Source of the DNA: a virus
Reading direction: 5' to 3' (one strand)
IMG/VR virus record: IMGVR_UViG_3300045141_000229
Span: 1 to 39,704 of that record
DNA length: 39,704 nt
The position numbers and the translations under genes were made by a program. The notes below the pieces were generated by a model. It was not told the DNA's origin, ran no database searches, and was given only the letters and a program-made list of their open reading frames with translations. Shown piece by piece: positions 3,694-32,580 of this stretch (within the stretch, counting starts at the first letter, position 1; every line of letters starts with the position of its first letter).

Positions 3694-4031
3694 CAGGGTT
3701 GAAGGTCAAGAAAATGTGTATAAATAGCTGGGAGTAGTCCGGCGTATGGTGCTGGTATAAGCGCTGGGATAGCTCAAAACGGCCTACAGAAACATGTAGG
3801 CAAAACAACGTGTTAAGGCCCGTTTTACGGGGATCGTTCCTTCTCGTCCCTCCCGATTTTCCCCTGTCACCATAGCTCAAGGAAATGTAACAGGGCTCAA
3901 GGTCTGCCCTGCAACCCGCGCAAATGCTGGATTTCATTGACACAGGCGTACAGGAGGGTTTAAGAGTGTCTCTGGGCCATCAAGGCCTGCCCGCTGGGAT
4001 AGCCACTGGGATAGACGGAAGGGACACCACC
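3694..4031 (+). other. attP-like intergenic region with repeats next to integrase
   Basis: This 338-base non-coding stretch separates the late genes from the integrase. It holds four copies of CTGGGA(G)TAG near 3728, 3763, 3994 and 4006. It also has three copies of GTGACAGGG or GTAACAGGG: forward at 3690-3698 and 3887-3895, reverse at 3862-3870. The forward copies share the extended form GT(G/A)ACAGGG(T/C)T(G/C)AAGGTC. A hairpin CCTACA/TGTAGG (3783-3788 with 3795-3800) lies inside a larger imperfect AAAACGGCC/GGCCCGTTTT pairing. Two families of short repeats beside an integrase gene are what integrase arm sites and excisionase sites look like. The crossover core itself cannot be named. Confidence 0.5.
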
Positions 4032-5324
4032 ATGAAACTCTCGACTTTGACCGTCACCGCCCTGCAGCCGCGCATCAACAAGAATGGCAAGTTTGGCTTC
4101 TACCGGGTCGGCGATGGCCGGAACCTTTATGTGCAGGTTTCGCCGACCGGTGCGAAGTCGTGGGTCTACCTCTACCGCGCCGGCAACGGCAAGCAGCGCG
4201 AGCTTGGCCTCGGCTCCTTCACGGGTGACGGCGCTGCCGTCTCGGTCTCCCTGAAGGATGCCCGTCTGGCCGCCGACAAGGTCCGCGCCCAGCTCGCCGC
4301 CGGCACCGATCCCATCGACGCCAAGACCGCCATCAAGGCCGCCGCCAAGGTCGATGTCATCACCTTCGCCTCGATCCTCGATCTTGTGATCGCCAACGAG
4401 AAGATCAACTGGAAGCTCAACCCTGAGGGCGGCAGCGACAACGAAAACCAGTGGCGCTCCAGCATGGCCAACTATGCCGCCAAGCTGCTCGACATGCCGG
4501 TCGCCAAAGTCGGCGAGGACGAGGTGCTGGACGTGCTGAGGCCGATCTGGAAGACCATCCCGATGACCGCCGACCGCGTCCGCTTCCGCATCAACGCGGT
4601 GATCGAGCATGCCACCATCAAGCGTCTCTATGTCGGCCCGAACCCGGCTCGCACGAAGGCGCTCATCGACGTCCTGCTGGGCAAGGCTGAGGTCGCCGCC
4701 GTCGTCAACCAGCCTTCCCTGCCCTACGCCGAGCTGCCCGCCGTGGTTGCATTGCTGCGCGCCAAGAAGGGCATCGCCGCCAAGGCCACCCTGTTCACGA
4801 CGCTGACCGCCGTGCGCACCGACGAGGCGCGGCTGGCGCTGAAGAGCGAGGTCAATTTCGACACCAAGCTGTGGCTGGTGCCGGCGGCCCGCGTGAAGGG
4901 AAAGAAGGGCGAGGCGAACAGCCCGGAGCGCATCGTGCCGCTCTCCGACGCCGCCATCGAAGTGCTGCGCACCCTGCAGGACAGCGACAGCATCTACCTC
5001 TTCCCCGGCACCAAGGAAGGCCAGACGCTGAACCCCTCCAGCCTCAACGACATGCTGGTCAAGCCGAAGGCGAAGGGCTGTCTCGACCTCAAGGGCAAGG
5101 CGACGATGCACGGCATGCGCGCCTCGTTCAGCACATGGGCCAACGAGCAGCTCACCTTCGACAAGGACGCCATCGAGCTGTGCCTCGCGCACGTCGTCGG
5201 CACCAAGGTCAGCCGCGCCTACAATCGCTCCGAGAAGCTCGCCGAGCGCACCCGGATCATGCAGGCGTGGGGCAACTACTGCTTCGGGATTTCGAACCTC
5301 GTCCAGCTGGAGCGGGCAGCATGA
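4032..5324 (+). CDS. int: Tyrosine recombinase integrase, P4-type
   Basis: The 430-residue protein integrates and excises the phage genome at attP/attB. The N-terminal part (GRNLYVQVSPTGAKSWVYLY, then ARLAADKVRAQLAAGTDPI) matches the DUF4102 domain of P4-like integrases. A core-binding region follows, and the C-terminal catalytic domain shows the expected set: R262 in TAVRTDEARLAL, H360 and R363 in HGMR, H387 in HVVG, and the nucleophile Y397 in SRAYNRSE. The ATG at 4032 is preferred: GGAAGGG lies eight bases upstream and the product then begins at the family's usual point, while the frame runs open to 3924. The adjacent repeats are candidate binding sites. Confidence 0.95.
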   Translation: MKLSTLTVTALQPRINKNGKFGFYRVGDGRNLYVQVSPTGAKSWVYLYRAGNGKQRELGLGSFTGDGAAVSVSLKDARLAADKVRAQLAAGTDPIDAKTAIKAAAKVDVITFASILDLVIANEKINWKLNPEGGSDNENQWRSSMANYAAKLLDMPVAKVGEDEVLDVLRPIWKTIPMTADRVRFRINAVIEHATIKRLYVGPNPARTKALIDVLLGKAEVAAVVNQPSLPYAELPAVVALLRAKKGIAAKATLFTTLTAVRTDEARLALKSEVNFDTKLWLVPAARVKGKKGEANSPERIVPLSDAAIEVLRTLQDSDSIYLFPGTKEGQTLNPSSLNDMLVKPKAKGCLDLKGKATMHGMRASFSTWANEQLTFDKDAIELCLAHVVGTKVSRAYNRSEKLAERTRIMQAWGNYCFGISNLVQLERAA

Positions 5325-20747: not shown

Positions 20748-21203
20748 GTGGCGATCCTCACCAACCCACGATACGAGCGATTTGCACAGGGGCTCGCGAA
20801 GGGCAAGTCCCAGCACGACGCCTACCTGTACGCCGGCTATGCCCCCAACCAGAAGTCTAAGGACGTTCGCTCCAACGCTGGAACCCTCGCCAGAAGGCCT
20901 GAGGTAGCAGCTCGCGTCGAGGAGTTGCTGTCGAAGCAGCAAAACCGCATCGGCATTACTGTCGACGCCCTGCTGCTGGAGCTGGACGAGATGTACAAGC
21001 TGGCCAAGCGGGTGAAGCAGCCCTCAGCCGGCGTCGGCGTCGTCATCGCCAAGGCCAAGCTGCTCGGCCTGATGACCGACAAGCTGGAGATCGAGGGCAA
21101 CCTGCGCAAGCCGTCGCGCAGCCCGTCCGAGAAGACCGTCATGTCGGTCGAGGAGTGGCAGGCCAAGTTTGTCCCGGTGCCCGGCAAGGACACCATCCAA
21201 TGA
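20748..21203 (+). CDS. terS: Terminase small subunit
   Basis: The 151-residue protein matches the Terminase_2 type: NPRYERFAQGLAKGKSQHDA, YAGYAP, NAGTLARRPEVAARVEELLS, then ELDEMYKLAKR and AKAKLLGLMTDKLEIEGNL. The N-terminal helix-turn-helix recognises the packaging site and the middle helices oligomerise. It starts at a GTG and overlaps terL by four bases. It begins the late operon. Family assignment is by motif and context. Confidence 0.85.
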   Translation: MAILTNPRYERFAQGLAKGKSQHDAYLYAGYAPNQKSKDVRSNAGTLARRPEVAARVEELLSKQQNRIGITVDALLLELDEMYKLAKRVKQPSAGVGVVIAKAKLLGLMTDKLEIEGNLRKPSRSPSEKTVMSVEEWQAKFVPVPGKDTIQ

Positions 21204-22699
21204 ACGCTGCGGCGGCCCAACGCGCAAAAGTGCTGGTCTCGACCGTTTCGATCGATCCCCATAAGGCCCATGCCCGCCCGCAGCGCCAGATCGAGCTGGG
21301 CTTCATCCCGCAGGCCGGGCCGCAGACCGCCTTCATCGACTGCCCCTGCGACATCGTCATCTTCGGCGGCGCGCGCGGCGGCGGCAAGACGCACGGCTCG
21401 CTCGGCGAGTGGTGGATACATTCCGAGGACTACGGCTCAGCCGCCAACGGCCTGATGGTCCGCAAGACCCGCGAAGATTTGCGCGACACCATCCGCGCCG
21501 GGCAGGAGATGTTTGGCGCAGCCGCGACGTGGCGCGAGAAGGGCTCCTTCTTCCAGATGGCCAACGGTGGCAAGCTCACCTGCGCCTACCTCGAAAACGA
21601 TCAGGACGCCGCCAACTACCAAGGCTGGTCGCTGACCCGCGTCTACGTCGAGGAGCTGACCCAGTACGCCTCGTCGAGCGCCATCTTCAAGCTGTTCGCC
21701 TGCCTGCGCTCGCCGGTCGGCGTGCCCTGCCAGTTCCGCGCCACCTGCAACCCCGGCGGCCCCGGCCACCACTGGGTCAAGCAGTGGGCCATCGACATCG
21801 GCCCCTACCAGATTTTCGTCGACCCTGAGACGCATATGAGCCGCGTCTTCATCCCGTCGCGGCTGGCCGACAACCCACTGCTGATGAAAAACGACCCCGG
21901 CTACATCAACAAGCTGCGCGCCTCTGGCTCGCCGCAGCTGGTCAGGGCGTGGCTGGAGGGCGACTGGAACGTCATCGAGGGCGCTTTCTTCTCCGAGTTT
22001 TCGACCCACCGCCACATCATCCCGGCCTTCAAGGTGCCCGAACACTGGGTCCGCTTCCGCTCGATGGACTGGGGATCGGCGCACCCGTTCTCGGTCGGCT
22101 GGTGGGCGGTCTGTCAGGACGAGTTTGTCCACGACGAGCGGGTGATCCCGCGCGGTGCCATCATCCGCTACCGCGAATGGTACGGGGCCAAGACCGGCCA
22201 GCCCAACATCGGCCTGAAAATCCCCGCCGAGGCCGTGGCCGCCGGCATTGTTTCCCGTGAAACCGAGACCGGCACCAAGGAGCGCATCGCCTACGGCGTG
22301 CTGGACCCGGCGGCCTTCGCCGTGATCTCAGGGCCGTCCATCGGCGAGACGCTGATGCGCAACGGCGCGGTCTTCCGCCGCGCCGACAACAGCCGCACCA
22401 CCCGCGACAAGCGCATGGGCGGCTGGGACCAGATGCGGGCGCGCCTGAAGGGCAACGCCGATGGTCATCCGATGATATTTTTCTTCGACACATGCCGTGA
22501 TCTCATCCGCACCCTGCCGATGATGCAGCACGACGAAAACCGGCCCGAAGACCTCGACACCGATGGCGAGGATCACGCCGTCGACGAGACCCGCTACGCC
22601 TGCCTGTCGCGGCCCTATCTGGCCTCGACGGTCACTGTTGCTTCGAAGAACCCGTTCCTCGTCGCCAACGCCTTCAAGCTCAACGATCTGAGGGACTGA
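21200..22699 (+). CDS. terL: Terminase large subunit
   Basis: The 499-residue packaging motor has an N-terminal ATPase with Walker A GGARGGGKT (K63) and Walker B VYVEE (about 148-152), and a C-terminal RNase H-like nuclease with MDWGS (D290), VLDPAAF (D369) and DHAVDETRYA (D458/D462). It cuts concatemers and pumps DNA through the portal. The length is normal for the family. The ATG overlaps the terS stop, and the next gene starts two bases after its stop. Confidence 0.95.
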   Translation: MNAAAAQRAKVLVSTVSIDPHKAHARPQRQIELGFIPQAGPQTAFIDCPCDIVIFGGARGGGKTHGSLGEWWIHSEDYGSAANGLMVRKTREDLRDTIRAGQEMFGAAATWREKGSFFQMANGGKLTCAYLENDQDAANYQGWSLTRVYVEELTQYASSSAIFKLFACLRSPVGVPCQFRATCNPGGPGHHWVKQWAIDIGPYQIFVDPETHMSRVFIPSRLADNPLLMKNDPGYINKLRASGSPQLVRAWLEGDWNVIEGAFFSEFSTHRHIIPAFKVPEHWVRFRSMDWGSAHPFSVGWWAVCQDEFVHDERVIPRGAIIRYREWYGAKTGQPNIGLKIPAEAVAAGIVSRETETGTKERIAYGVLDPAAFAVISGPSIGETLMRNGAVFRRADNSRTTRDKRMGGWDQMRARLKGNADGHPMIFFFDTCRDLIRTLPMMQHDENRPEDLDTDGEDHAVDETRYACLSRPYLASTVTVASKNPFLVANAFKLNDLRD

Positions 22700-22701
22700 C
22701 C

Positions 22702-25080
22702 ATGGTGGCTCAAGACCCAGCCCTCAAGCCAGAGCCGGTCAACTCAGGACCGCCCGGCAGGCCTGACCAGCAGGACGTGGCCGCGACCTCGCCCGCCGAC
22801 ACCTATTCGGCCAACGACGACATCGACGTCAAATACTGGCTCGACTGCCTCGACGACGCCGAGCGCGCCGAGCAGGACTGGCGCAGGCGTGGCCGCGAGA
22901 TCATCGGCATCTACCGCAACGAGAACCGCAACGGAAAATCCGGCAAATGGCAGGCCGGCAACATCACCTTCAACATCCTCTACGCCAACACCGAGGTCAT
23001 GCTGCCGGCGGTCTACCAGAAGCCGCCAGAGCCTGTCGTGCGCAGCCGTTTCACGAAAGTGGCACCGCCGCCACCGCCGCCGATGCCGCCCCCCGGTCTG
23101 GGACTTCCGGGTCAGCCGCCCCCCGGTGTCGGGATGCCACCCCCGCCGCCCGGCGCGCCCTTGCCGCCGCCGGGCGGCCCCGTTCCCGAAATGCCTCCCG
23201 GCCCCGGCCCGATGAACGGCCCGCCGCCGATGGGGCCGCCACCGGGACCACCACTCGGCGCTCCCATCGTCATGCCACCGATGGCCCCGCCGGGCGCGCC
23301 GGCCATGCCTTCTCCTCCCATGGGCATGGTCGGGCCGCCACCGCCACCGATGCCACCGCCGCCCCCGCCGGGGCCGGTGCAGTCGGACATCGACACCGCC
23401 GCCTCCGTCATGGAGAAGGCGCTGGAGATCGTGCTGGACGACGAGCATTCCGACGAAGCCGTGAAAATGGCGATCAAGGACGTGCTGCTGCCCGGCAGGG
23501 GCATCGTGCGCGTGCGCTGGAAGCCGCAGATGAAGCAGATGCCGGTGATGGCCGGCGACGGCACCACGCCGCTGCCAGCGCCGCCCCAGATGGGCGACAA
23601 CGGCGGCCCGCCCATGGAGGACGTCAAGGTCTGGGAAGAGGTCGACGACGAGTATGTCTACTGGGAGGATTTCCTCTGCGACCCGGTGCGCTCGACCAGC
23701 GACATGAGCTGGATCGCCTTCCGCCACCTGTTCGCCGCCAAGGAGCTGGACACCGAGTTTGCCGGCTCGCCGCAGTACGAGAAGCTGAAGGCCGCGAACC
23801 AGCTCGACCAGCTGGTCAAGTGGACCGACGAAAGCGCGGCCATGAGCCCGGTCGGCGGCGGCGCGGCGATGAAGACCGCGCAGAAGCTCGGCCAGAAGAT
23901 CAAGAAGGCGATGCTGTGGGAGATTTGGGACCGCAACTCGCGCCAGATCATCTGGTTCTGCCGCGACGCGTCGGGCCTCGCCTTCCGCGTCGACCCCGAC
24001 AGCCTGCAGCTCGACGGCTTCTACCCGATCCCGGTGCCGATGCTGGCGGTGACCACCACCGACAGCCGCATCCCGCGCCCGTTCTACGACCTGTACGCCA
24101 AGCTCGCCGCCGACCTCGACGAGACCTCGGCGCGCATCTCGAACCTCACCAAGCAGATCAAGGTGCGCGGGGCCTTCAACGCCGCCTCGAACGAGATCAG
24201 GGACATCCTCACCGCCGACGACCAGAAGATGATCCCCGTCGAGGGGGTGGACATGATCACGGGCGGCCTCTCGGCGCACATCTGGATGATGCCGATCACC
24301 GACTTCATGAACGCGCTGGACAAGCTGTTCCTCGCCCGCGAGCAGTGCAAGCAGGCGATCTACGAGGTGATGGGCATTTCCGACATCATGCGCGGCGCGA
24401 CCAAGGCCTCCGAGACCGCGACCGCGCAGCGCATGAAGGGCTCCATGGGCGCGTCGCGGCTGCAGGACGCCAAGCAGCAGGCCGGCAATTTCGTGCGCGA
24501 CCTGCTGCGCCTCAAGGGCGAGATCATCGCCAAGAATTTTTCCCCGGAAACGCTGGAGGCGATGACCGGTGAGACAATGACGCCAGAGGTGCTGGCGATC
24601 CTGCGCTCGGACTTCATGCGCACCTGCACCATCGACATCGAGGCCGACAGCACGGTCATCGTCGACGAGCAGCAGGAACAGCAGTCGATGGCCATGGTCA
24701 TGCAGTCGGTGCAAATGGTCATGCAGGGCGCGCAGTCGATGCTGATGACCGGCATCCTGCCGCCGCCGAAGGTGATCCAGCTGTCGCTGGAGCTGCTGAA
24801 GATGGCGCTCCACCCGGTGCGCTACTCCAGAGGCGTCGTCGAGCTGATCAACACCTTTCAGGACCAGCTTGCGGTGATGGCGTCGATGCCACCGCCGCCC
24901 ATGCCACCGCCGGGAGCCCCGCCGGGGCCACCCGGCGCGCCACCGGGAGGCCCACCCGGAGGGCCGCCGCATCTGGGGGCTCCTCCGCATCCACCGGGAC
25001 CACCGAACGGCGCTGGCGGGCCTCCCCGCCCGCCGGGACCACCTATGCCGCCACCCGGCGGCCACCCACCCATGATGTAA
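22702..25080 (+). CDS. Portal protein with polyproline insert and tail
   Basis: The 792-residue protein forms the DNA channel at the capsid vertex. Portal-type segments are WQAGNITFNILYANTEVMLP, AVKMAIKDVLLPGRGIVRVR, DDEYVYWEDFLCDPVRS, and a long helical part with KQAIYEVMGISDIMRGATKA and QRMKGSMGASRLQDAKQQAG. The arrangement resembles portals of P22-like podoviruses. Unusual are a Pro/Gly/Met insert at residues about 120-227 (for example PPPPPPMPPPGLGLPGQPPP) and a similar C-terminal tail at 730-792. The frame is intact and the flanking domains fit, so these are real extensions. Total length is above the usual portal. Confidence 0.85.
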   Translation: MVAQDPALKPEPVNSGPPGRPDQQDVAATSPADTYSANDDIDVKYWLDCLDDAERAEQDWRRRGREIIGIYRNENRNGKSGKWQAGNITFNILYANTEVMLPAVYQKPPEPVVRSRFTKVAPPPPPPMPPPGLGLPGQPPPGVGMPPPPPGAPLPPPGGPVPEMPPGPGPMNGPPPMGPPPGPPLGAPIVMPPMAPPGAPAMPSPPMGMVGPPPPPMPPPPPPGPVQSDIDTAASVMEKALEIVLDDEHSDEAVKMAIKDVLLPGRGIVRVRWKPQMKQMPVMAGDGTTPLPAPPQMGDNGGPPMEDVKVWEEVDDEYVYWEDFLCDPVRSTSDMSWIAFRHLFAAKELDTEFAGSPQYEKLKAANQLDQLVKWTDESAAMSPVGGGAAMKTAQKLGQKIKKAMLWEIWDRNSRQIIWFCRDASGLAFRVDPDSLQLDGFYPIPVPMLAVTTTDSRIPRPFYDLYAKLAADLDETSARISNLTKQIKVRGAFNAASNEIRDILTADDQKMIPVEGVDMITGGLSAHIWMMPITDFMNALDKLFLAREQCKQAIYEVMGISDIMRGATKASETATAQRMKGSMGASRLQDAKQQAGNFVRDLLRLKGEIIAKNFSPETLEAMTGETMTPEVLAILRSDFMRTCTIDIEADSTVIVDEQQEQQSMAMVMQSVQMVMQGAQSMLMTGILPPPKVIQLSLELLKMALHPVRYSRGVVELINTFQDQLAVMASMPPPPMPPPGAPPGPPGAPPGGPPGGPPHLGAPPHPPGPPNGAGGPPRPPGPPMPPPGGHPPMM

Positions 25081-25096
25081 CCCGAAGGAGACCGAC

Positions 25097-25441
25097 GTGA
25101 CCCTCACCCCGCAGCCCTACAACCCGAACCTCGCCGCCGAGCAGCGCGCTCAGGCCACCATCGCCGCCGAGCAGGCACCCGGCTACACCGACACCTACAG
25201 CGACCCGATCATCGCCGCCCGCGATCCTGTCGGTGCCCGCGTCGACCCGGTGCCGGCTGTCATTCTCGACATCCCGGCCAACGAGCCTTACCCGACCGGC
25301 AACCCGTATCAGCCGAGCTGGGCCGAGATTAACGGCGTGCATACGCTGACCGGTGATCAGGCTCCCATCGAGCCGGTGGCCGCCAGCGGCGTGCCGCGCG
25401 GTGAGATCAACACCAGCGGCCTTGCGCCGGTAGGAGGCTGA
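25097..25441 (+). CDS. Small head-region hypothetical protein
   Basis: The 114-residue product starts at a GTG after GGAG. The sequence NPNLAAEQRAQATIAAEQAP then DTYSDPIIAARDPVGARVDP is Pro/Ala-rich with few predicted helices. It lies between portal and an Ig-like protein in the late operon, so it may be a minor head component. No family recognised. Confidence 0.55.
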   Translation: MTLTPQPYNPNLAAEQRAQATIAAEQAPGYTDTYSDPIIAARDPVGARVDPVPAVILDIPANEPYPTGNPYQPSWAEINGVHTLTGDQAPIEPVAASGVPRGEINTSGLAPVGG

Positions 25442-25442
25442 G

Positions 25443-26018
25443 ATGGCTCTGGCTGACCTCAACCGCTCGAACGACACGCCGATCTCGACGCTGAAGTTGG
25501 CCGAGGTGCCGGTGAAGAACTGGCACAGGTTCCCGGCTCGCGTAGGCCCCGGCATCCCGCCGGTCTATGTGCCGACGATCACCTACTTCGGTGGTGCCTT
25601 TGGTGACGAGATCGACACCGCGACCGCCAACTCCACCGACGACTACGCGCCAAAAACGCAGGCGGCCAAGGCCGCGCTGATGGTTCCGGCGGGCGCTCTG
25701 GCGGTCGACGTCACCCGCTCACGCGGCTGGATCGAGCCGGGACAGGCCTACGGTGCCATCCCGGCAGACCCGACGCTGACCGGCATCGCGCCGGCCACCG
25801 CCGTCCATGGCACCGCTGCCGTTCAGGTGACGCTGACCGGCACCGGCTTCACGCGCTTCAGCAAGGTCAGGGTCGACGGCGTCTCGGTGCCGTTCACCTA
25901 CGTCTCGCCGACCTCGCTCATCGCCACCGTCACGCCGAAGGCAACCGCCGGCACCCAGCTGGTCACCGCCGTCGACCACTCGGTGAACACCGCCAGCCAA
26001 AACTTCGTGGTCACCTGA
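25443..26018 (+). CDS. IPT/TIG (Ig-like) domain protein, capsid decoration candidate
   Basis: The 191-residue protein has an N-terminal region of about 100 residues and then one IPT/TIG Ig-like domain: LTGIAPATAVHGTAAVQVTL, GTGFTRFSKVRVDGVSVPF, then LIATVTPKATAGTQLVTAVD. TIG domains of this form are known in capsid decoration and tail proteins. Position between portal and scaffold favours a head-surface role, where it could bind host surface sugars. The exact location on the virion is inferred. Confidence 0.75.
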   Translation: MALADLNRSNDTPISTLKLAEVPVKNWHRFPARVGPGIPPVYVPTITYFGGAFGDEIDTATANSTDDYAPKTQAAKAALMVPAGALAVDVTRSRGWIEPGQAYGAIPADPTLTGIAPATAVHGTAAVQVTLTGTGFTRFSKVRVDGVSVPFTYVSPTSLIATVTPKATAGTQLVTAVDHSVNTASQNFVVT

Positions 26019-26075: not shown

Positions 26076-26453
26076 ATGATCGACCCACAGCTGTCGCTAC
26101 GGCTCGATGAAATCAACCGGAAGCTCGATCATCACCATGAGCTTCTCCACAACCTGATCGAGCGGCAGGCCGACGAAAAGTCCCTGATCCTCGATCTCCA
26201 AGAAAGGACGATAGCAATGTCTGTAATCACTGACCGCCTCGCCGCCTCCGTCGCCGCAGAAACCACCGTCGAGCAATCGGCTGTCGTCCTGCTCGGTCAG
26301 CTCTCGCAGCTGATCCGCGACAACGCCACCGACCCGGTCGCTCTGGCCAAGATTGCCGACGACATCGACGGCAACGCCAAGACCCTTGCCGACGCCGTCA
26401 CCGCCAACACCCCGACGCCCCCGGTGACGCCGCCCGCGAACCCGCCGGCCTGA
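26076..26453 (+). CDS. Small helical protein, possible second start at 26218
   Basis: The full frame gives 125 residues from an ATG after GGAG (spacing about 11). The first 47 residues are a polar coiled coil (LDEINRKLDHHHELLHNLIE). The rest, from MSVITDRLAASVAAETTVEQ at 26218, has its own AAGGA and looks like a complete small phage protein ending in a Pro-rich tail (TPPVTPPANPPA). Two products from one frame are possible. Similar short proteins with VEQSAVVLLGQLSQLI occur in rhizobial phages, as I recall. Confidence 0.6.
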   Translation: MIDPQLSLRLDEINRKLDHHHELLHNLIERQADEKSLILDLQERTIAMSVITDRLAASVAAETTVEQSAVVLLGQLSQLIRDNATDPVALAKIADDIDGNAKTLADAVTANTPTPPVTPPANPPA

Positions 26454-26455
26454 TC

Positions 26456-26701
26456 ATGGGACCGCGCGACCCGGTCAACACCGCGACCGGCGAGCCGCTC
26501 AGCGAGCGGCAGCAGCATCACCTCGCCGCCATCACGGCGGCGGGGGAGACCCTGCTTGACGCGATGCATGCCGCCGAGGGCTCGAACCCTCCCGGCCAGC
26601 ATCAGGAACACACCTTCCAGAGCCGGCGGATGAACATCGCCGCCACGCATCTGGAGACGTCGCTGATGTACGCCAGAAAGGCTGCACTGGAGAGCCGATG
26701 A
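26456..26701 (+). CDS. Acb2/Tad1-hairpin-like small protein (candidate)
   Basis: The 81-residue protein has two helices separated by a polar loop: SERQQHHLAAITAAGETLLD and, at the end, RRMNIAATHLETSLMYARKA. The closing pattern (S/N)-x-A-x-T-x-LE-x-x-x-M-x-A-x-KA is close to that of Acb2-type phage proteins, which sequester cyclic-oligonucleotide signals of CBASS and Thoeris defence, and to T4 Vs.4. The family is often encoded among head genes. The match is from memory of the motif, so it is a candidate. The stop overlaps the next gene by four bases. Confidence 0.5.
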   Translation: MGPRDPVNTATGEPLSERQQHHLAAITAAGETLLDAMHAAEGSNPPGQHQEHTFQSRRMNIAATHLETSLMYARKAALESR

Positions 26702-27009
26702 AACACGACCTGAAGGCTGACATGAAGCGCGAGGGCGAGACCCTCAAGGCCGAGACGAAGGAGCCGCCAGCCGGCGACCCGCAGGACCGCAAGATGCCGA
26801 AGCAGTTCGCGCTGCCGAAGACGGCGAAAAAGGCGATCCCCTTCATGGATGTGCCCGGCTCCGATCCGAGCGCGGTGATGAAGGGCGACAACGCCCAGTT
26901 CGTCAAAGGCTCGACCGCGCCCGGCACCCCGGTGCAGAAGCCGCAGAAGGTGGGCGCACGCGGCTACATCGGCGGCGGCCAGTTCAACCTGCCGAAGTCG
27001 AAGAAATGA
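26698..27009 (+). CDS. Charged head-region hypothetical protein
   Basis: The 103-residue protein is Lys/Pro-rich: KHDLKADMKREGETLKAETK, KMPKQFALPKTAKKAIPFMD and RGYIGGGQFNLPKSKK. It is probably mostly disordered. It is coupled to both neighbours by four-base overlaps. A minor head or assembly role is possible. No family recognised. Confidence 0.55.
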   Translation: MKHDLKADMKREGETLKAETKEPPAGDPQDRKMPKQFALPKTAKKAIPFMDVPGSDPSAVMKGDNAQFVKGSTAPGTPVQKPQKVGARGYIGGGQFNLPKSKK

Positions 27010-27323
27010 CGGTTTTTGTGTTTCGGGATGGCCTCGTAGTCCCGAAAGGGTCGGGCCGCGCTGAAGACGTCCCTCCAGCGCGGTCTGACTTCCCGTCTCC
27101 GATGCTGAGCCGCATCGAGCCGTTCGAAAGTCCGGTGACCGGGGCAGAAATCACGTCGTGGCGCGACCGCGAGCGCGACATGAAGGCCGCCGACGCGGTC
27201 GATCCGAGAGACTTGCCACCCGTCTTCAAGCGAGGCCGGGCGGCGCAAAAAAAGGAAGTCGAAGATGCCAGAAAACGATCAGGCGATGCCTCCGTCAAAT
27301 GGGGCACCCTCTCCAGCCCCTGA
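27006..27323 (+). CDS. Hypothetical protein before scaffold
   Basis: The 105-residue product starts MTVFVFRDGLVVPKGSGRAE and includes FESPVTGAEITSWRDRERDM and AADAVDPRDLPPVF, a pattern I recall from small ORFs before scaffold genes in podoviruses. Its last 59 bases overlap the scaffold gene in another frame. The overlap contains seven A in a row at 27247-27253, which also form part of the scaffold ribosome site. Confidence 0.6.
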   Translation: MTVFVFRDGLVVPKGSGRAEDVPPARSDFPSPMLSRIEPFESPVTGAEITSWRDRERDMKAADAVDPRDLPPVFKRGRAAQKKEVEDARKRSGDASVKWGTLSSP

Positions 27324-28464
27324 GACTACGCTACCCGCTCCCCGCCCGTCGATCCGAGAGGTCGCAGAGGCCTCATGGGACGAGGTGCAGGACGCTGCCG
27401 CAGCCACCGATGGTGAGCCCTCAGCCGACGATGTTGCTGGACAGGAGGCCCGCGCGAGAGATAGGTTGGGCCGCTTCGCACCAGCAGATCAGGCAGCGAA
27501 GCCGGGCGAGCAGTCGCAAGACCCAGCCCCGATCACCGATCCTAAAGCGCCCGGTACGGCGACGCCGGTTGATCCAGCCCACGGGAGCAATCAACCACCG
27601 CAGCACTGGTCTGAGCAGGACCGCAAAACCTTCGCGACGCTTCCACCAGCAGGGCAGGAATTTCTGCTGCGGCGGCACACCGAAATGGAGCGGGACTACC
27701 AAGGCAAGGCGCAGGCCTCAGCGACAGCAGTCCAGTTTACCCAGTCGCTCGCGCCGATCTTCCAAGACCCGGTCATTGCCGGGTCGCTGCAGCAGGCGGG
27801 TGTCTCGGCCTACGATGCCATCGGGCAGTGGGCAGGGTTTCACCGCCGGGCCATGGATCAGAACCCTCAGGTTCGCATGGCGCTGTGGCAGGAGCTTGGT
27901 CAGCGGATGGGTCTGGACCCAGCGGCAACAGGCCAAATGAGCCAGCCGGGCAGAGGGGCCTTGTCGGAAGAAGACCTCAAAGACCCGGCTATCAAGTATT
28001 TCGCCGACCACATCGGTAAAACCTTAAGCGACGTGCAGACCCTGAGAGGGGAATTGCACCAGATGCGTCAGCAGGAAGCTCAAAAGGCCAATGCTGAAGT
28101 GTTGAAGGTCACAAGATGGTCAATCGACAGCTTCGCGGACGAGAAGGATGCTTCGGGCAAGCCGAAACATCCGCATTTCGACGCGGTGTTGCCGCATATG
28201 ATCGAGCTGTACCGGGCGAACCCGGAGCGCGACTTGCAACAGGCCTACGACATGGCCATCTGGGCGGTCCCCGAAATCCGCGCGAGCCTGATTGCCGCTG
28301 AACGCGCAGGCGTCCAGCAGCAGCAGTCCAACGAGCGGGCGCGGCAAGCGGTGCGGTCAAACGTGCGGGGTGTCACCTCGCCAGTTTCCAAGCCCGCCGG
28401 CAGCGGCAAGGCCACAGGGATCAGGGCGGCGCTTGAGGCAGCAGCTGAAGAGGTCGGCCTCTGA
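27265..28464 (+). CDS. Scaffolding protein
   Basis: The 399-residue protein has the features of podoviral scaffolds: a disordered Pro/Ala/Asp-rich first third, the motif RDRLGRFAPADQ, PPQHWSEQDRKTFATLPPAG followed by QEFLLRRHTEMERDYQGKAQ, and then helical parts up to a basic C-terminus (SNVRGVTSPVSKPAGSGKAT) that would contact the capsid protein. It sits directly before the major capsid gene, the normal order. It would be removed from the procapsid during maturation. The ATG lies behind AAGGAAG. Confidence 0.85.
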   Translation: MPENDQAMPPSNGAPSPAPETTLPAPRPSIREVAEASWDEVQDAAAATDGEPSADDVAGQEARARDRLGRFAPADQAAKPGEQSQDPAPITDPKAPGTATPVDPAHGSNQPPQHWSEQDRKTFATLPPAGQEFLLRRHTEMERDYQGKAQASATAVQFTQSLAPIFQDPVIAGSLQQAGVSAYDAIGQWAGFHRRAMDQNPQVRMALWQELGQRMGLDPAATGQMSQPGRGALSEEDLKDPAIKYFADHIGKTLSDVQTLRGELHQMRQQEAQKANAEVLKVTRWSIDSFADEKDASGKPKHPHFDAVLPHMIELYRANPERDLQQAYDMAIWAVPEIRASLIAAERAGVQQQQSNERARQAVRSNVRGVTSPVSKPAGSGKATGIRAALEAAAEEVGL

Positions 28465-28503: not shown

Positions 28504-29457
28504 ATGGCCGAACCGACCACCAATAACCTCGTCACCACCACCATCAACAACTACCACAAGGAGTTTGCCGACAACGTCAGCAACTCCAACGCCATCACCG
28601 CGCTGCTCAAGGCCGGTGACCGCGTGCGCACCATTGACGGCGGCAAGGCGATCTCTTGCCCCCTGAGCTACGCAGAAGAAACCTTCGCTTGGTACAGCGG
28701 CGTCGACCTGCTCTCGCGTGCCCTCAAGGAGACCTTGTCCGAGGCCGACTACTCGCCGGCCAACGCGGTCGCCTCGATCACGCTCTCCGGTCCCGATCTG
28801 GCCAAGAACAAGGGCAAGGAGCGCATCCTCAACTTGCTGGAAGGCAAGATGGAGAACGCCCAGTCGACGATGAACAACAACATCACCAAGGCGGTCTACG
28901 GCGACGGCACGGTGGCGAAGTCGTTCGCCGGTCTCAAGGCCTTCGTCACCGATGACGGCCTCGGCACCGTGGGCGGCATCAGCGCCACCACATGGGCGTT
29001 CTGGATGAACCAGTTCCAGTCCATCGCCCGCGCCACCGGCCTGCAGTACCCGGCCCTCAAGGCCGGCATGAATGCGCTCTGGATGAAGCTGATCCGGGGC
29101 ACCGAGCATCCCGACCTCGTCGTCGCCGACGCCGAAGTCTACTCGACCTACGAGAGCGGCCTGCAGGAGAACCAGCGCTACGCCGACGCACGGCTTGGCG
29201 CACTGGGCTTCGAAACCCTGAAATACAAGCAGGCGGCTCTGGTGTTCGACGGCGCGGCCACCGGCCTCGTCGGCGGCTACATGCTCAACACCAAGTTCAT
29301 GAAGTTCGAAATCTACGAGGGCCGGAATTTCGAGATGCTCGATCTTCCCGACCAGTCGCCAGACATGGACGCGATCACCCGCCACCTCGCCTTCATGGGC
29401 GCGCTGACCCTGTCCAACCGCTCCAAGCAGGGCCGCATCCTGCTGACCGGCGTCTGA
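28504..29457 (+). CDS. Major capsid protein
   Basis: The 317-residue protein forms the head shell. It begins AEPTTNNLVTTTINNYHKEF and includes DRVRTIDGGKAISCPLSYAE, WYSGVDLLSRALKETLSEAD, LLEGKMENAQSTMNNNITKA and the closing YMLNTKFMKFEIYEGRNFEM with LTLSNRSKQGRILLTG. The layout, with an E-loop region, a spine helix and a beta-rich end, fits an HK97-fold capsid as in many podoviruses. It has no protease-dependent delta domain. It lies directly after scaffold and is flanked by strong hairpins, which suggests separate control of its expression. Confidence 0.9.
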   Translation: MAEPTTNNLVTTTINNYHKEFADNVSNSNAITALLKAGDRVRTIDGGKAISCPLSYAEETFAWYSGVDLLSRALKETLSEADYSPANAVASITLSGPDLAKNKGKERILNLLEGKMENAQSTMNNNITKAVYGDGTVAKSFAGLKAFVTDDGLGTVGGISATTWAFWMNQFQSIARATGLQYPALKAGMNALWMKLIRGTEHPDLVVADAEVYSTYESGLQENQRYADARLGALGFETLKYKQAALVFDGAATGLVGGYMLNTKFMKFEIYEGRNFEMLDLPDQSPDMDAITRHLAFMGALTLSNRSKQGRILLTGV

Positions 29458-30101: not shown

Positions 30102-30524
30102 ATGTCCGCTCTGGTCAGCGTCAAGGATTGCATCAGCCAAGCCTCCATGGAGATCGGCATCGCCCAGCGACCGGTCTCCACGGCGGTCGGCTCGCTCGAT
30201 CAGGACATTGTCCAGATGCTGGCGCTGCTGTCGGCGGTCGCCGACGAGGTGATGCTCGACCAGCCCTATGTCGACATCCTCGGTGACGGCATCTGGATTT
30301 ATTCCGCCACCGAGGTGCCGAAGGACAGCTTCACCGCCGACGACGACCTCATCGCCTTCGACGCGAGGCTCGCCATCGACGGCCTGAAGTACCGGTTCCT
30401 GAAGGCCAAGGGCCTCGAATATGGCGAGGAGATGCGCGACTTCCTGACCCGGCTGAACAAGCTGGCGGCGCGCACCAATGGCCGCGTCCTCGACCTCAAC
30501 TGCGACGAGGGCCGCCAGCAATGA
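30102..30524 (+). CDS. Head-tail adaptor candidate
   Basis: The 140-residue helical protein has SVKDCISQASMEIGIAQRPV and QDIVQMLALLSAVADEVMLD, then LIAFDARLAIDGLKYRFLKA and EEMRDFLTRLNKLAARTNGR. The layout of a helical bundle with an ALIAxxLxYRFLxAKG region fits head completion or adaptor proteins of the P22 gp4/T7 gp11 type. The stop overlaps the next tail gene by four bases. Assigned by position and secondary-structure pattern. Confidence 0.65.
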   Translation: MSALVSVKDCISQASMEIGIAQRPVSTAVGSLDQDIVQMLALLSAVADEVMLDQPYVDILGDGIWIYSATEVPKDSFTADDDLIAFDARLAIDGLKYRFLKAKGLEYGEEMRDFLTRLNKLAARTNGRVLDLNCDEGRQQ

Positions 30525-32089
30525 GGATGGTCCCATCCCGCTATCTGAAGTCGACGCCTGCGCAGGTGAAGAAGCAGGTGGCCAACCTCAAGCACATCAG
30601 CGCCCCGCTGAAGGGCCTGTCGCTGTCGTCGAAGCTGATACAGGGCGACCCGCTCACCGCCACCGTCCTCGACAACTGGGTGATCGAGGAAAACCAGATC
30701 AAGGCCCGCGCCGGCACCTTGCTTCGCCACACCTTTGCCGGCGGCCACCCGGTCGAGACGCTGGTGCCGTACTACGGCGCGCCAATGCAGATCGCGGCTG
30801 CGGTCAACGGCACCATCAGCCTGCTCAGCGGCACCGTCGTCCACAGCGGCTTCACCGGCAACGACTGGTCGTGGACCTCATTCGCCAACCTGTCGTCGAC
30901 CGACTACACGATCATGGTCAACGGCTTCGACGGCGTCTGGTCGTGGGACGGCACGGCGATGGTCGCCGAGACCGTCACCGCGCCCGCCGCCGAGCCGTGG
31001 ATCACGCCCGCGCAGTTCAACATCGTGCTGGCGCACCAGAACCGGCTGTGGTTCGCCGACACCACCAATCTGGCGGTCTATTACCTGCCGCTGCAGCAGA
31101 AGTCCGGCGAGGTCGCGCTGCTCCCGCTCAACGCCATTTTCAAGCGCGGCGGCACCATCCGCGCCATGTACACATGGTCGACGACCGGCGCGACCAACAT
31201 CACCGACCAGCTGGTGATCTTCACCACCAATGGCGAGCTGGCGATCTACGGCGGCACCGACCCGACCGATCCCGCCAACTTCTACCTGCAGGGCGTCTAT
31301 CGCTTCGACGCACCGATGTCGAAGCATGCGGTCGCCAACTATGGCGGCGAGCTTTACTGCCTGATCTCGACCGGTCTGGTGCCGATGTCGACGCTGATGC
31401 GCGCCGAGAGCGAGCAGCTCGGCGCACAGGACCGCAACGTCTTCACCAATTTCTACCAGCCGGCGCTGCTGCATCGCGACAGTCCCGGCTGGTCGGTCAT
31501 CATCAACCCGCTGAGCGGGCGCATGATCTGCAACATCCCGCAGGGCGGCCTCAACCGCTATGGCCAGATGGTGCGCTTCATGCCGAACCCGGTCTGGGCA
31601 TCGTGGTCGGCGGTGCCGGCGCGCTGCTGGGGCTGGCTCGATGGGCGGCTCTATTTCGGCTCCGACGACGGCCTCGTCTACGAGATGCACCCGACGTTCC
31701 TCAACGACAACGGCAAGCCGATCAAGGTCGACGTGCAGATGGCGTGGTCGAATTACGGCACCCCGGCGTCGAAGCTCTTCAAGATGATCCTGCCCTACAT
31801 CCAGACCGAGGGCTCGCCGCTCCCGTTCATCGACATGAAGGTCGACTACGACCTGTCCGCGCCGACCAACCAGCCCGACGTCACCTTCTCCTCGCAAGGT
31901 GCCGTCTGGGACTTGGCGACGTGGGACGTCGACGGCTGGGGCGGTGCGCTGACAGGCCACAACGACTGGTCGGGTGTCGGCGTCATCGGACGTGTCGGCG
32001 CGCCGCGCCTGACCGCACTGATCCTCAACTGCAGTTTCGCGGTCGGCGGCTGGGACGTGCTTTACGAGCAGGGGAGCATCTTCGGATGA
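30521..32089 (+). CDS. Tail protein, P22 gp10-like (beta-propeller-like)
   Basis: The 522-residue protein is beta-rich, with repeated blades such as YTIMVNGFDGVWSWDGTAMV, IVLAHQNRLWFADTTNLAVY, LVIFTTNGELAIYGGTDP and RLYFGSDDGLVYEMHPTFLN. Repeated L-V-x-x-N-G and W-x-D-G motifs suggest a propeller. Similar proteins in podoviruses form the tail hub or stabilise packaged DNA, as P22 gp10 does. It is followed by a coupled GNAT-like gene. Name by analogy; the precise tail part is not shown. Confidence 0.7.
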   Translation: MRMVPSRYLKSTPAQVKKQVANLKHISAPLKGLSLSSKLIQGDPLTATVLDNWVIEENQIKARAGTLLRHTFAGGHPVETLVPYYGAPMQIAAAVNGTISLLSGTVVHSGFTGNDWSWTSFANLSSTDYTIMVNGFDGVWSWDGTAMVAETVTAPAAEPWITPAQFNIVLAHQNRLWFADTTNLAVYYLPLQQKSGEVALLPLNAIFKRGGTIRAMYTWSTTGATNITDQLVIFTTNGELAIYGGTDPTDPANFYLQGVYRFDAPMSKHAVANYGGELYCLISTGLVPMSTLMRAESEQLGAQDRNVFTNFYQPALLHRDSPGWSVIINPLSGRMICNIPQGGLNRYGQMVRFMPNPVWASWSAVPARCWGWLDGRLYFGSDDGLVYEMHPTFLNDNGKPIKVDVQMAWSNYGTPASKLFKMILPYIQTEGSPLPFIDMKVDYDLSAPTNQPDVTFSSQGAVWDLATWDVDGWGGALTGHNDWSGVGVIGRVGAPRLTALILNCSFAVGGWDVLYEQGSIFG

Positions 32090-32580
32090 AGGTCACCTTC
32101 GACGCCCTCGACCTCGACGCCGCCGAGTTTCTCTCGGAGGAGACCGGCATCGATTTTCGCCGCATCGATTTTCGCCACCCGCGCTGGTTCTGCGTCACCG
32201 CCCGGCGCGACGACGACACCCTGATGGGCGTGCTGGCCTGCGAGTTTAAGGAGTGGTTCAACGTCCACTTCTCGACCGCGATCTGCGACCAGCGCTGCAT
32301 GAGCCGGCGGCTGCTGCGGGCGATCTTCACCGGGCTGTTTTCTCGAGCCGTGCGCGTCACCGCGCTGGTCGACCCGGAGGCCCAGACGACCATCGAGCTG
32401 ATCCGCCGCATGGGCTTTGTCTACGAGGGTTTCATGCGCATGGGCGTCGAGGGACGACGCGACGCCCTGCTCTTCGGCATGCTCCGCGAGGACTGCCGCT
32501 TCCTGCCCGGCTACCACCCGGCGCGCGCCTCAATCCAGCCTCTCGCCCTCGGAGGGTTCCACCATGGTCTCCAGTCCTAG
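32086..32580 (+). CDS. GNAT-like acetyltransferase in tail region
   Basis: The 164-residue protein starts at an ATG overlapping the tail gene stop. It has DTLMGVLACEFKEWFNVHFS, RCMSRRLLRAIFTGLFSRAV, VTALVDPEAQTTIELIRRMG and FVYEGFMR, the typical last strands and helix of GNAT enzymes, where VDPEAQTTIELIRRMGFVYEG is the diagnostic end. GNAT-like genes recur in the tail cassettes of related phages. Substrate unknown; it may modify a virion or host protein. It overlaps the next gene by 17 bases. Confidence 0.75.
   Translation: MKVTFDALDLDAAEFLSEETGIDFRRIDFRHPRWFCVTARRDDDTLMGVLACEFKEWFNVHFSTAICDQRCMSRRLLRAIFTGLFSRAVRVTALVDPEAQTTIELIRRMGFVYEGFMRMGVEGRRDALLFGMLREDCRFLPGYHPARASIQPLALGGFHHGLQS

Follow-up and report, generated by a model that had tools for sequence, protein, structure and literature searches.

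A divergent relative of the Acb2 signal sponge is a candidate anti-defence protein among the head genes of a soil virus

Acb2 proteins such as Vs.4 of phage T4 and p26 of PaMx33/PaMx41 are small (88-94 aa), consist of two long antiparallel helices and form a homohexamer that is built as a dimer of trimers. The site for cyclic trinucleotides is found at the ends of the central channel and is separate from the dinucleotide site, the ligands bound vary among homologues and, according to the same review, Acb2 acts in induction of the lytic cycle and not in lysogeny (PMC12043709). In the T4 protein, the exchange T68M lowered binding and the variant Y8A was binding-deficient (PMC12657230). A putative Acb2, gp57 of Microbacterium phage Statler, was named by its authors (PMC13348362). 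A hairpin of the same family, carrying the motif SRExxxALTHxEEALMW, forms the C-terminus of the anti-Thoeris protein Tad1, which is longer (PDB chains of 123-138 aa) and has an additional N-terminal beta domain. R67 of PaMx33 Acb2 is taken here to be a residue that contacts the trinucleotide, and K26 of PaMx33, which corresponds to K23 of T4, is presumably a lysine with a role in dinucleotide binding. Cao et al. 2024 reportedly found the cyclic trinucleotide bound where helix 2 begins.

The window analysed here is a 39,704-base IMG/VR virus record of a soil phage. It contains an open reading frame of 81 codons (26456-26701, plus strand) whose product belongs, by the evidence given below, to the Acb2/Tad1 hairpin family (PF24729) and which is referred to as the hairpin gene. 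As the preliminary description had it, the gene is located among head genes. It lies between those for portal and capsid, and all genes of this region are encoded on the plus strand. Upstream are the genes for the large terminase subunit (21155-22699; Pfam PF03237, PHROG 2), the portal protein (22702-25080; PHROG 12082, E 5.5e-121), an IPT/TIG-domain protein which is a conserved neighbour by synteny (25443-26018; PF01833, E 2.5e-6) and a small protein with no significant match (26076-26453). Downstream follow two small proteins recognised by synteny (26698-27009 and 27006-27323), the second of which is kept also in viruses that lack the hairpin gene, a probable scaffold protein that matches no family and is assigned from its syntenic position only (27265-28464), and the major capsid protein (28504-29457; PHROG 9953, E 9.7e-72), on which the synteny test was anchored. 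In the window, as in those relatives with enough sequence, the hairpin gene is located past the TIG-domain gene and ahead of the small genes that precede the probable scaffold gene and the capsid gene. The proposed coupling into the operon is borne out by the spacing: the reading frame starts 2 nt past the stop codon of 26076-26453 and ends in a TGA that shares nucleotides with the start codon (ATG) of 26698-27009. A consensus scan, which is a weak test, revealed no promoter of its own. Comparison with nine relatives gave dN/dS values of 0.18-0.48, and differences were enriched at the third codon position (148/130/276 for positions one to three); therefore, the hairpin gene is a real gene under purifying selection.

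PF24729 was the sole Pfam match of the window protein (E 1.3e-5, residues 14-76), although its score of 25.7 bits is 1.3 bits short of the curated cut-off of 27 bits. The proven Acb2 Vs.4 reached 71.4 bits on this model, which was matched by all ten Acb2-type proteins of the comparison set. PADLOC returned nothing for the window protein and NCBIfam only an irrelevant weak match, and the single sequence had no match in either the PDB or phage records. Homologues were collected by a protein search followed by an alignment search of IMG/VR, which yielded 18 loci, and by a second search with the major capsid protein as anchor, in which the open reading frames of the best 80 of 146 loci were scanned with the family profile; the homologues found in the latter way are encoded at a similar distance upstream of the capsid gene. 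Identity to the window protein was as low as 20%, and the divergent homologues include DRRMALAFTKLEEALMWASAAVLDH, which comes near the canonical motif. PF24729 was matched by 31 of the 43 homologues (best E 2.1e-10), and six homologues from the same locus, scanned singly, exceeded the cut-off (L057, 41.1; L073, 36.6; L086, 35.7; L070, 34.6; L044, 33.7 and L076, 31.4 bits). A divergent homologue had no match in phage records, and no relative turned up when the family was scanned against 84,980 bacterial and archaeal species, each represented by one genome.

When the profile of the 43 homologues was compared with all PDB sequences, the first hit was T4 Vs.4 (E 0.0098) and hits two to six were five Tad1 chains (E 0.19-0.22). 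An alignment of this profile with the ten Acb2-type proteins by hhalign scored 51.2 (E 2.9e-9), and the window's own clade alone still gave an E-value of 6e-5; 30 column-shuffled controls scored at most 16.0 (best E 0.03) and the reversed profile 12.3. Thus, the C-terminal resemblance to the closing helix of Acb2 that had been noticed before (residues 61-76 of the window protein are IAATHLETSLMYARKA) goes beyond chance. From the profile hits in the PDB and the profile-profile score with its clean controls, we consider kinship with the Acb2/Tad1 hairpin family to be established with little room for doubt.

AlphaFold2 predicted for the single chain a two-helix hairpin with helix 1 at residues 17-41 (26504-26578), an inter-helix loop at residues 42-56 (26579-26623) and helix 2 at residues 57-79 (26624-26692), with a pLDDT of 87.1 from 18 and 91.5 from 43 sequences. 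The two-helix layout recognised earlier is therefore also predicted by the model, and the size is similar as well. The outcome that had been named as refuting, a missing profile match together with a fold different from the Acb2 hairpin, was not obtained. Two-helix hairpins make poor Foldseek queries, and a search of the PDB and of viral models yielded no hit at E <=0.001; T4 Vs.4 (E 1.6, TM 0.47) and PaMx33-type Acb2 were listed at E 1.6-4.4 and a TM of about 0.5, which is compatible with Acb2 but counts as no evidence for it. Ahead of helix 1 the window protein has only 16 residues and no beta domain. Since this domain is absent, the gcADPR pocket of Tad1 cannot form; identity with Tad1 was rejected for this reason, and the anti-Thoeris action once suggested, a property of Tad1, is not supported for the window protein.

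Helix 2 contains the motif R57-x6-T64-x2-E67-x3-M71, which could be aligned with both Vs.4 and Tad1. According to the profile alignment, T64 corresponds to T68 of T4 Acb2, and R57 to D61 of T4 Acb2 and to R67 of PaMx33 Acb2. Of the 43 homologues, 36 have R and 2 have K at position 57; position 64 is T in 35, position 67 is E in 36 (E or D in 42) and position 71 is M in 27. Unlike Acb2, the window protein lacks the N-terminal tyrosine (Y8 in T4, Y11 in PaMx33) that is invariant in all ten Acb2-type proteins compared; its only tyrosine is Y72. The position of PaMx33 K26 and T4 K23 is occupied by T27, and a lysine is found there in 13 of the 43 homologues, mainly in the divergent branch. Further differences from Acb2 are an N-terminal V[DN]xxTG stretch and an invariant H38-x-x-[DE]-G loop: H38 (26567-26569), near the end of helix 1, and G42 are present in 43/43 homologues and D/E41 in 41/43, and neither H38 nor G42 is conserved in the Acb2 set. 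Strong pairwise similarity to Acb2 is missing. Gordonia phage UBSmoodge gp25 and Paenibacillus phage Lily gp72, which also match PF24729, keep the N-terminal tyrosine and are without the H38/G42 loop. In the window's own clade (19 of the 43 homologues, with a GEHQEH-type motif) the stretch H38-x2-E41-G-S-x-P-P-G-x-H49-Q-E-H52 (residues 38-52, 26567-26611) is nearly invariant and could be a metal site; distant homologues keep only H38, D/E41 and G42.

Taken from these residues, the dinucleotide pocket looks lost or rebuilt, and the beginning of helix 2 is retained. Cyclic-dinucleotide binding as in Acb2 is not predicted for the window protein because the N-terminal tyrosine is absent, and since this residue of the dinucleotide pocket is lost, a cyclic trinucleotide is the more likely ligand.

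A place in the late operon had been regarded as odd for an anti-defence gene, unless the protein was packaged or expression was leaky. This objection loses its ground on comparison with other phages. In Vibrio phage D96a, a homologue of PaMx33 Acb2 (47% identity) is encoded between the portal gene and the gene preceding the major head gene; a homologue with 52% identity is found in Pseudomonas phage vB_Pae-SS2019XII, two genes past the capsid gene, and vB_Pae_CF125a has one with 42% identity in the same place. The PF24729 gene of UBSmoodge (gp25) is directly 3' of the portal gene; portal or capsid genes are the neighbours of Acb2 homologues in D96a, Pseudomonas Beetrevirus and UBSmoodge. Arthrobacter phage Jasmine has a similar gene two genes ahead of the terminase gene. 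Other positions occur as well: the Acb2 gene of PaMx41 closes the replication block, and vs.4 of T4 is surrounded by non-structural genes. The location of an Acb2-type gene in a head operon is thus not unusual, placement beside portal or capsid genes recurs across unrelated phages, and because several homologues adjoin such genes, neither packaging nor leaky expression has to be invoked.

The presence of the hairpin gene was counted in the 50 capsid-anchored loci whose upstream sequence spans 2,300 bases or more. It was found in 44, in one of them (L055) by a weak match, and was absent from six in which the flanking genes are intact. In these six, the family profile detected nothing at the locus, and the Pfam model found no copy elsewhere in the records, which are partly fragments. 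On the capsid tree the absences correspond to three changes, at least two of them on well-supported branches. The hairpin gene is therefore accessory; it is old and widely kept but dispensable, with about three losses. In Mx8, BUCT555, Bradyrhizobium phage ppBjS10J-1 and Aureimonas prophages, which are related more distantly by their capsid proteins, no homologue was found near the head genes. Several loci without the gene (L050, L052, L094, L095 and L074) have an unrelated small open reading frame between the TIG-domain gene and the counterpart of 27006-27323, possibly an alternative accessory gene for the same slot. The virus had been called rhizobial; this is loosely suggested by the similarity of its capsid protein to those of Aureimonas prophages (47-49%) and a Bradyrhizobium phage (39%), and a Hyphomicrobiales host is only hinted at.

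The reading that we favour, with somewhat better than even confidence, is that the window protein is a divergent Acb2-type (PF24729) signal sponge. The two-helix subunits would assemble into trimers and these into a hexamer, as in Acb2, and the oligomer would capture the cyclic oligonucleotide that serves the host as alarm signal, so that a CBASS-type effector stays off. Of the Acb2 surface, the part retained is where helix 2 begins (R57/R58 and T64), and the ligand would more likely be a cyclic trinucleotide bound at the three-fold axis than a cyclic dinucleotide; oligomer, ligand and anti-defence action are all inferred. In favour of this reading are the family matches of the window protein and its homologues, the predicted hairpin, the conservation of R57, T64 and E67, and the accessory nature of the gene. 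Several findings count against a sponge: the score below the Pfam cut-off, the missing tyrosine and the change of K26 to T27, the aspartate of T4 Acb2 where R57 aligns, and the non-significant Foldseek result, albeit obtained with a hairpin as poor query. Broad retention at one capsid-adjacent site would also suit a role in the virion or its assembly.

The main alternative is that the hairpin fold was co-opted for the virion or head assembly, for example as a small protein associated with portal or scaffold, and that nucleotide binding was lost. We consider this unlikely, but it is the strongest of the competing explanations. It would account for the single fixed site, with the TIG-domain gene on one side and the pre-capsid genes on the other, which is shared by the relatives examined first and by 44 of the 50 capsid-anchored loci, for the promoter scan, weak as it is, and for the loss of the dinucleotide tyrosine while an unrelated loop (H38 and G42, with HQEH in the window's clade) became invariant. 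An essential head part, however, would not tolerate the absences in six loci of about three lineages with intact flanks and no copy elsewhere in those records; moreover, close Acb2 relatives in other phages hold the same kind of place, and the position of T4 T68, important for ligand binding, is retained. The protein could also be a sponge for a signal other than the known di- and trinucleotides of CBASS, such as a cyclic oligoadenylate of type III CRISPR or one used by some other defence system, with the H38/G42 loop forming a new pocket at the end of the trimer. The strict conservation of H38, G42 and D/E41 in homologues of down to 20% identity, and of H38 and G42 outside the Acb2 set only, speaks for this, but the loop could be merely structural, as a helix cap, and we hold this improbable, more so than a role in the head. 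Chance resemblance of an unrelated protein, finally, was suggested by a short, helical and alanine-rich sequence that scores just below the Pfam cut-off; since bridging homologues exceed the cut-off, the top six PDB hits are all Acb2 or Tad1 chains and the shuffled and reversed controls are clean, it was rejected and is very improbable indeed.

If the protein is an Acb2-type sponge, an uncultured group of soil viruses carries a near-constant but dispensable sponge gene with an altered binding site in its head operon. Its members would then be a pointer to host signals that are important in the soil habitat, and would provide natural variants with which the dinucleotide site and the trinucleotide site could be told apart. 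A bolder version, to which we give little credence, would be an Acb2-type subfamily of head operons which lacks the dinucleotide tyrosine, has a new, invariant pocket at the end of the trimer, formed by H38-x-x-[DE]-G, and sequesters a signal for which no sponge is known yet, in soil viruses that probably infect alphaproteobacteria.

Some further features of the window were noted. The IPT/TIG-domain protein (25443-26018) is conserved across the group yet only 35-55% identical, and is possibly a head-surface protein. The portal gene (22702-25080) has long proline-rich insertions and a long proline-rich tail; the 787-codon open frame antisense to it (22744-25107) is probably a high-GC artefact. 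The reading frame of 700 codons at 30478-32580 is probably not a single gene: its arginine-rich start overlaps the open frame 30521-32089, and the match to an acyl-CoA N-acyltransferase family (PHROG 4470) is confined to its end. A collagen-like tail fibre protein is encoded at 1253-2302, and a tyrosine integrase at 3924-5324 points to a temperate virus.
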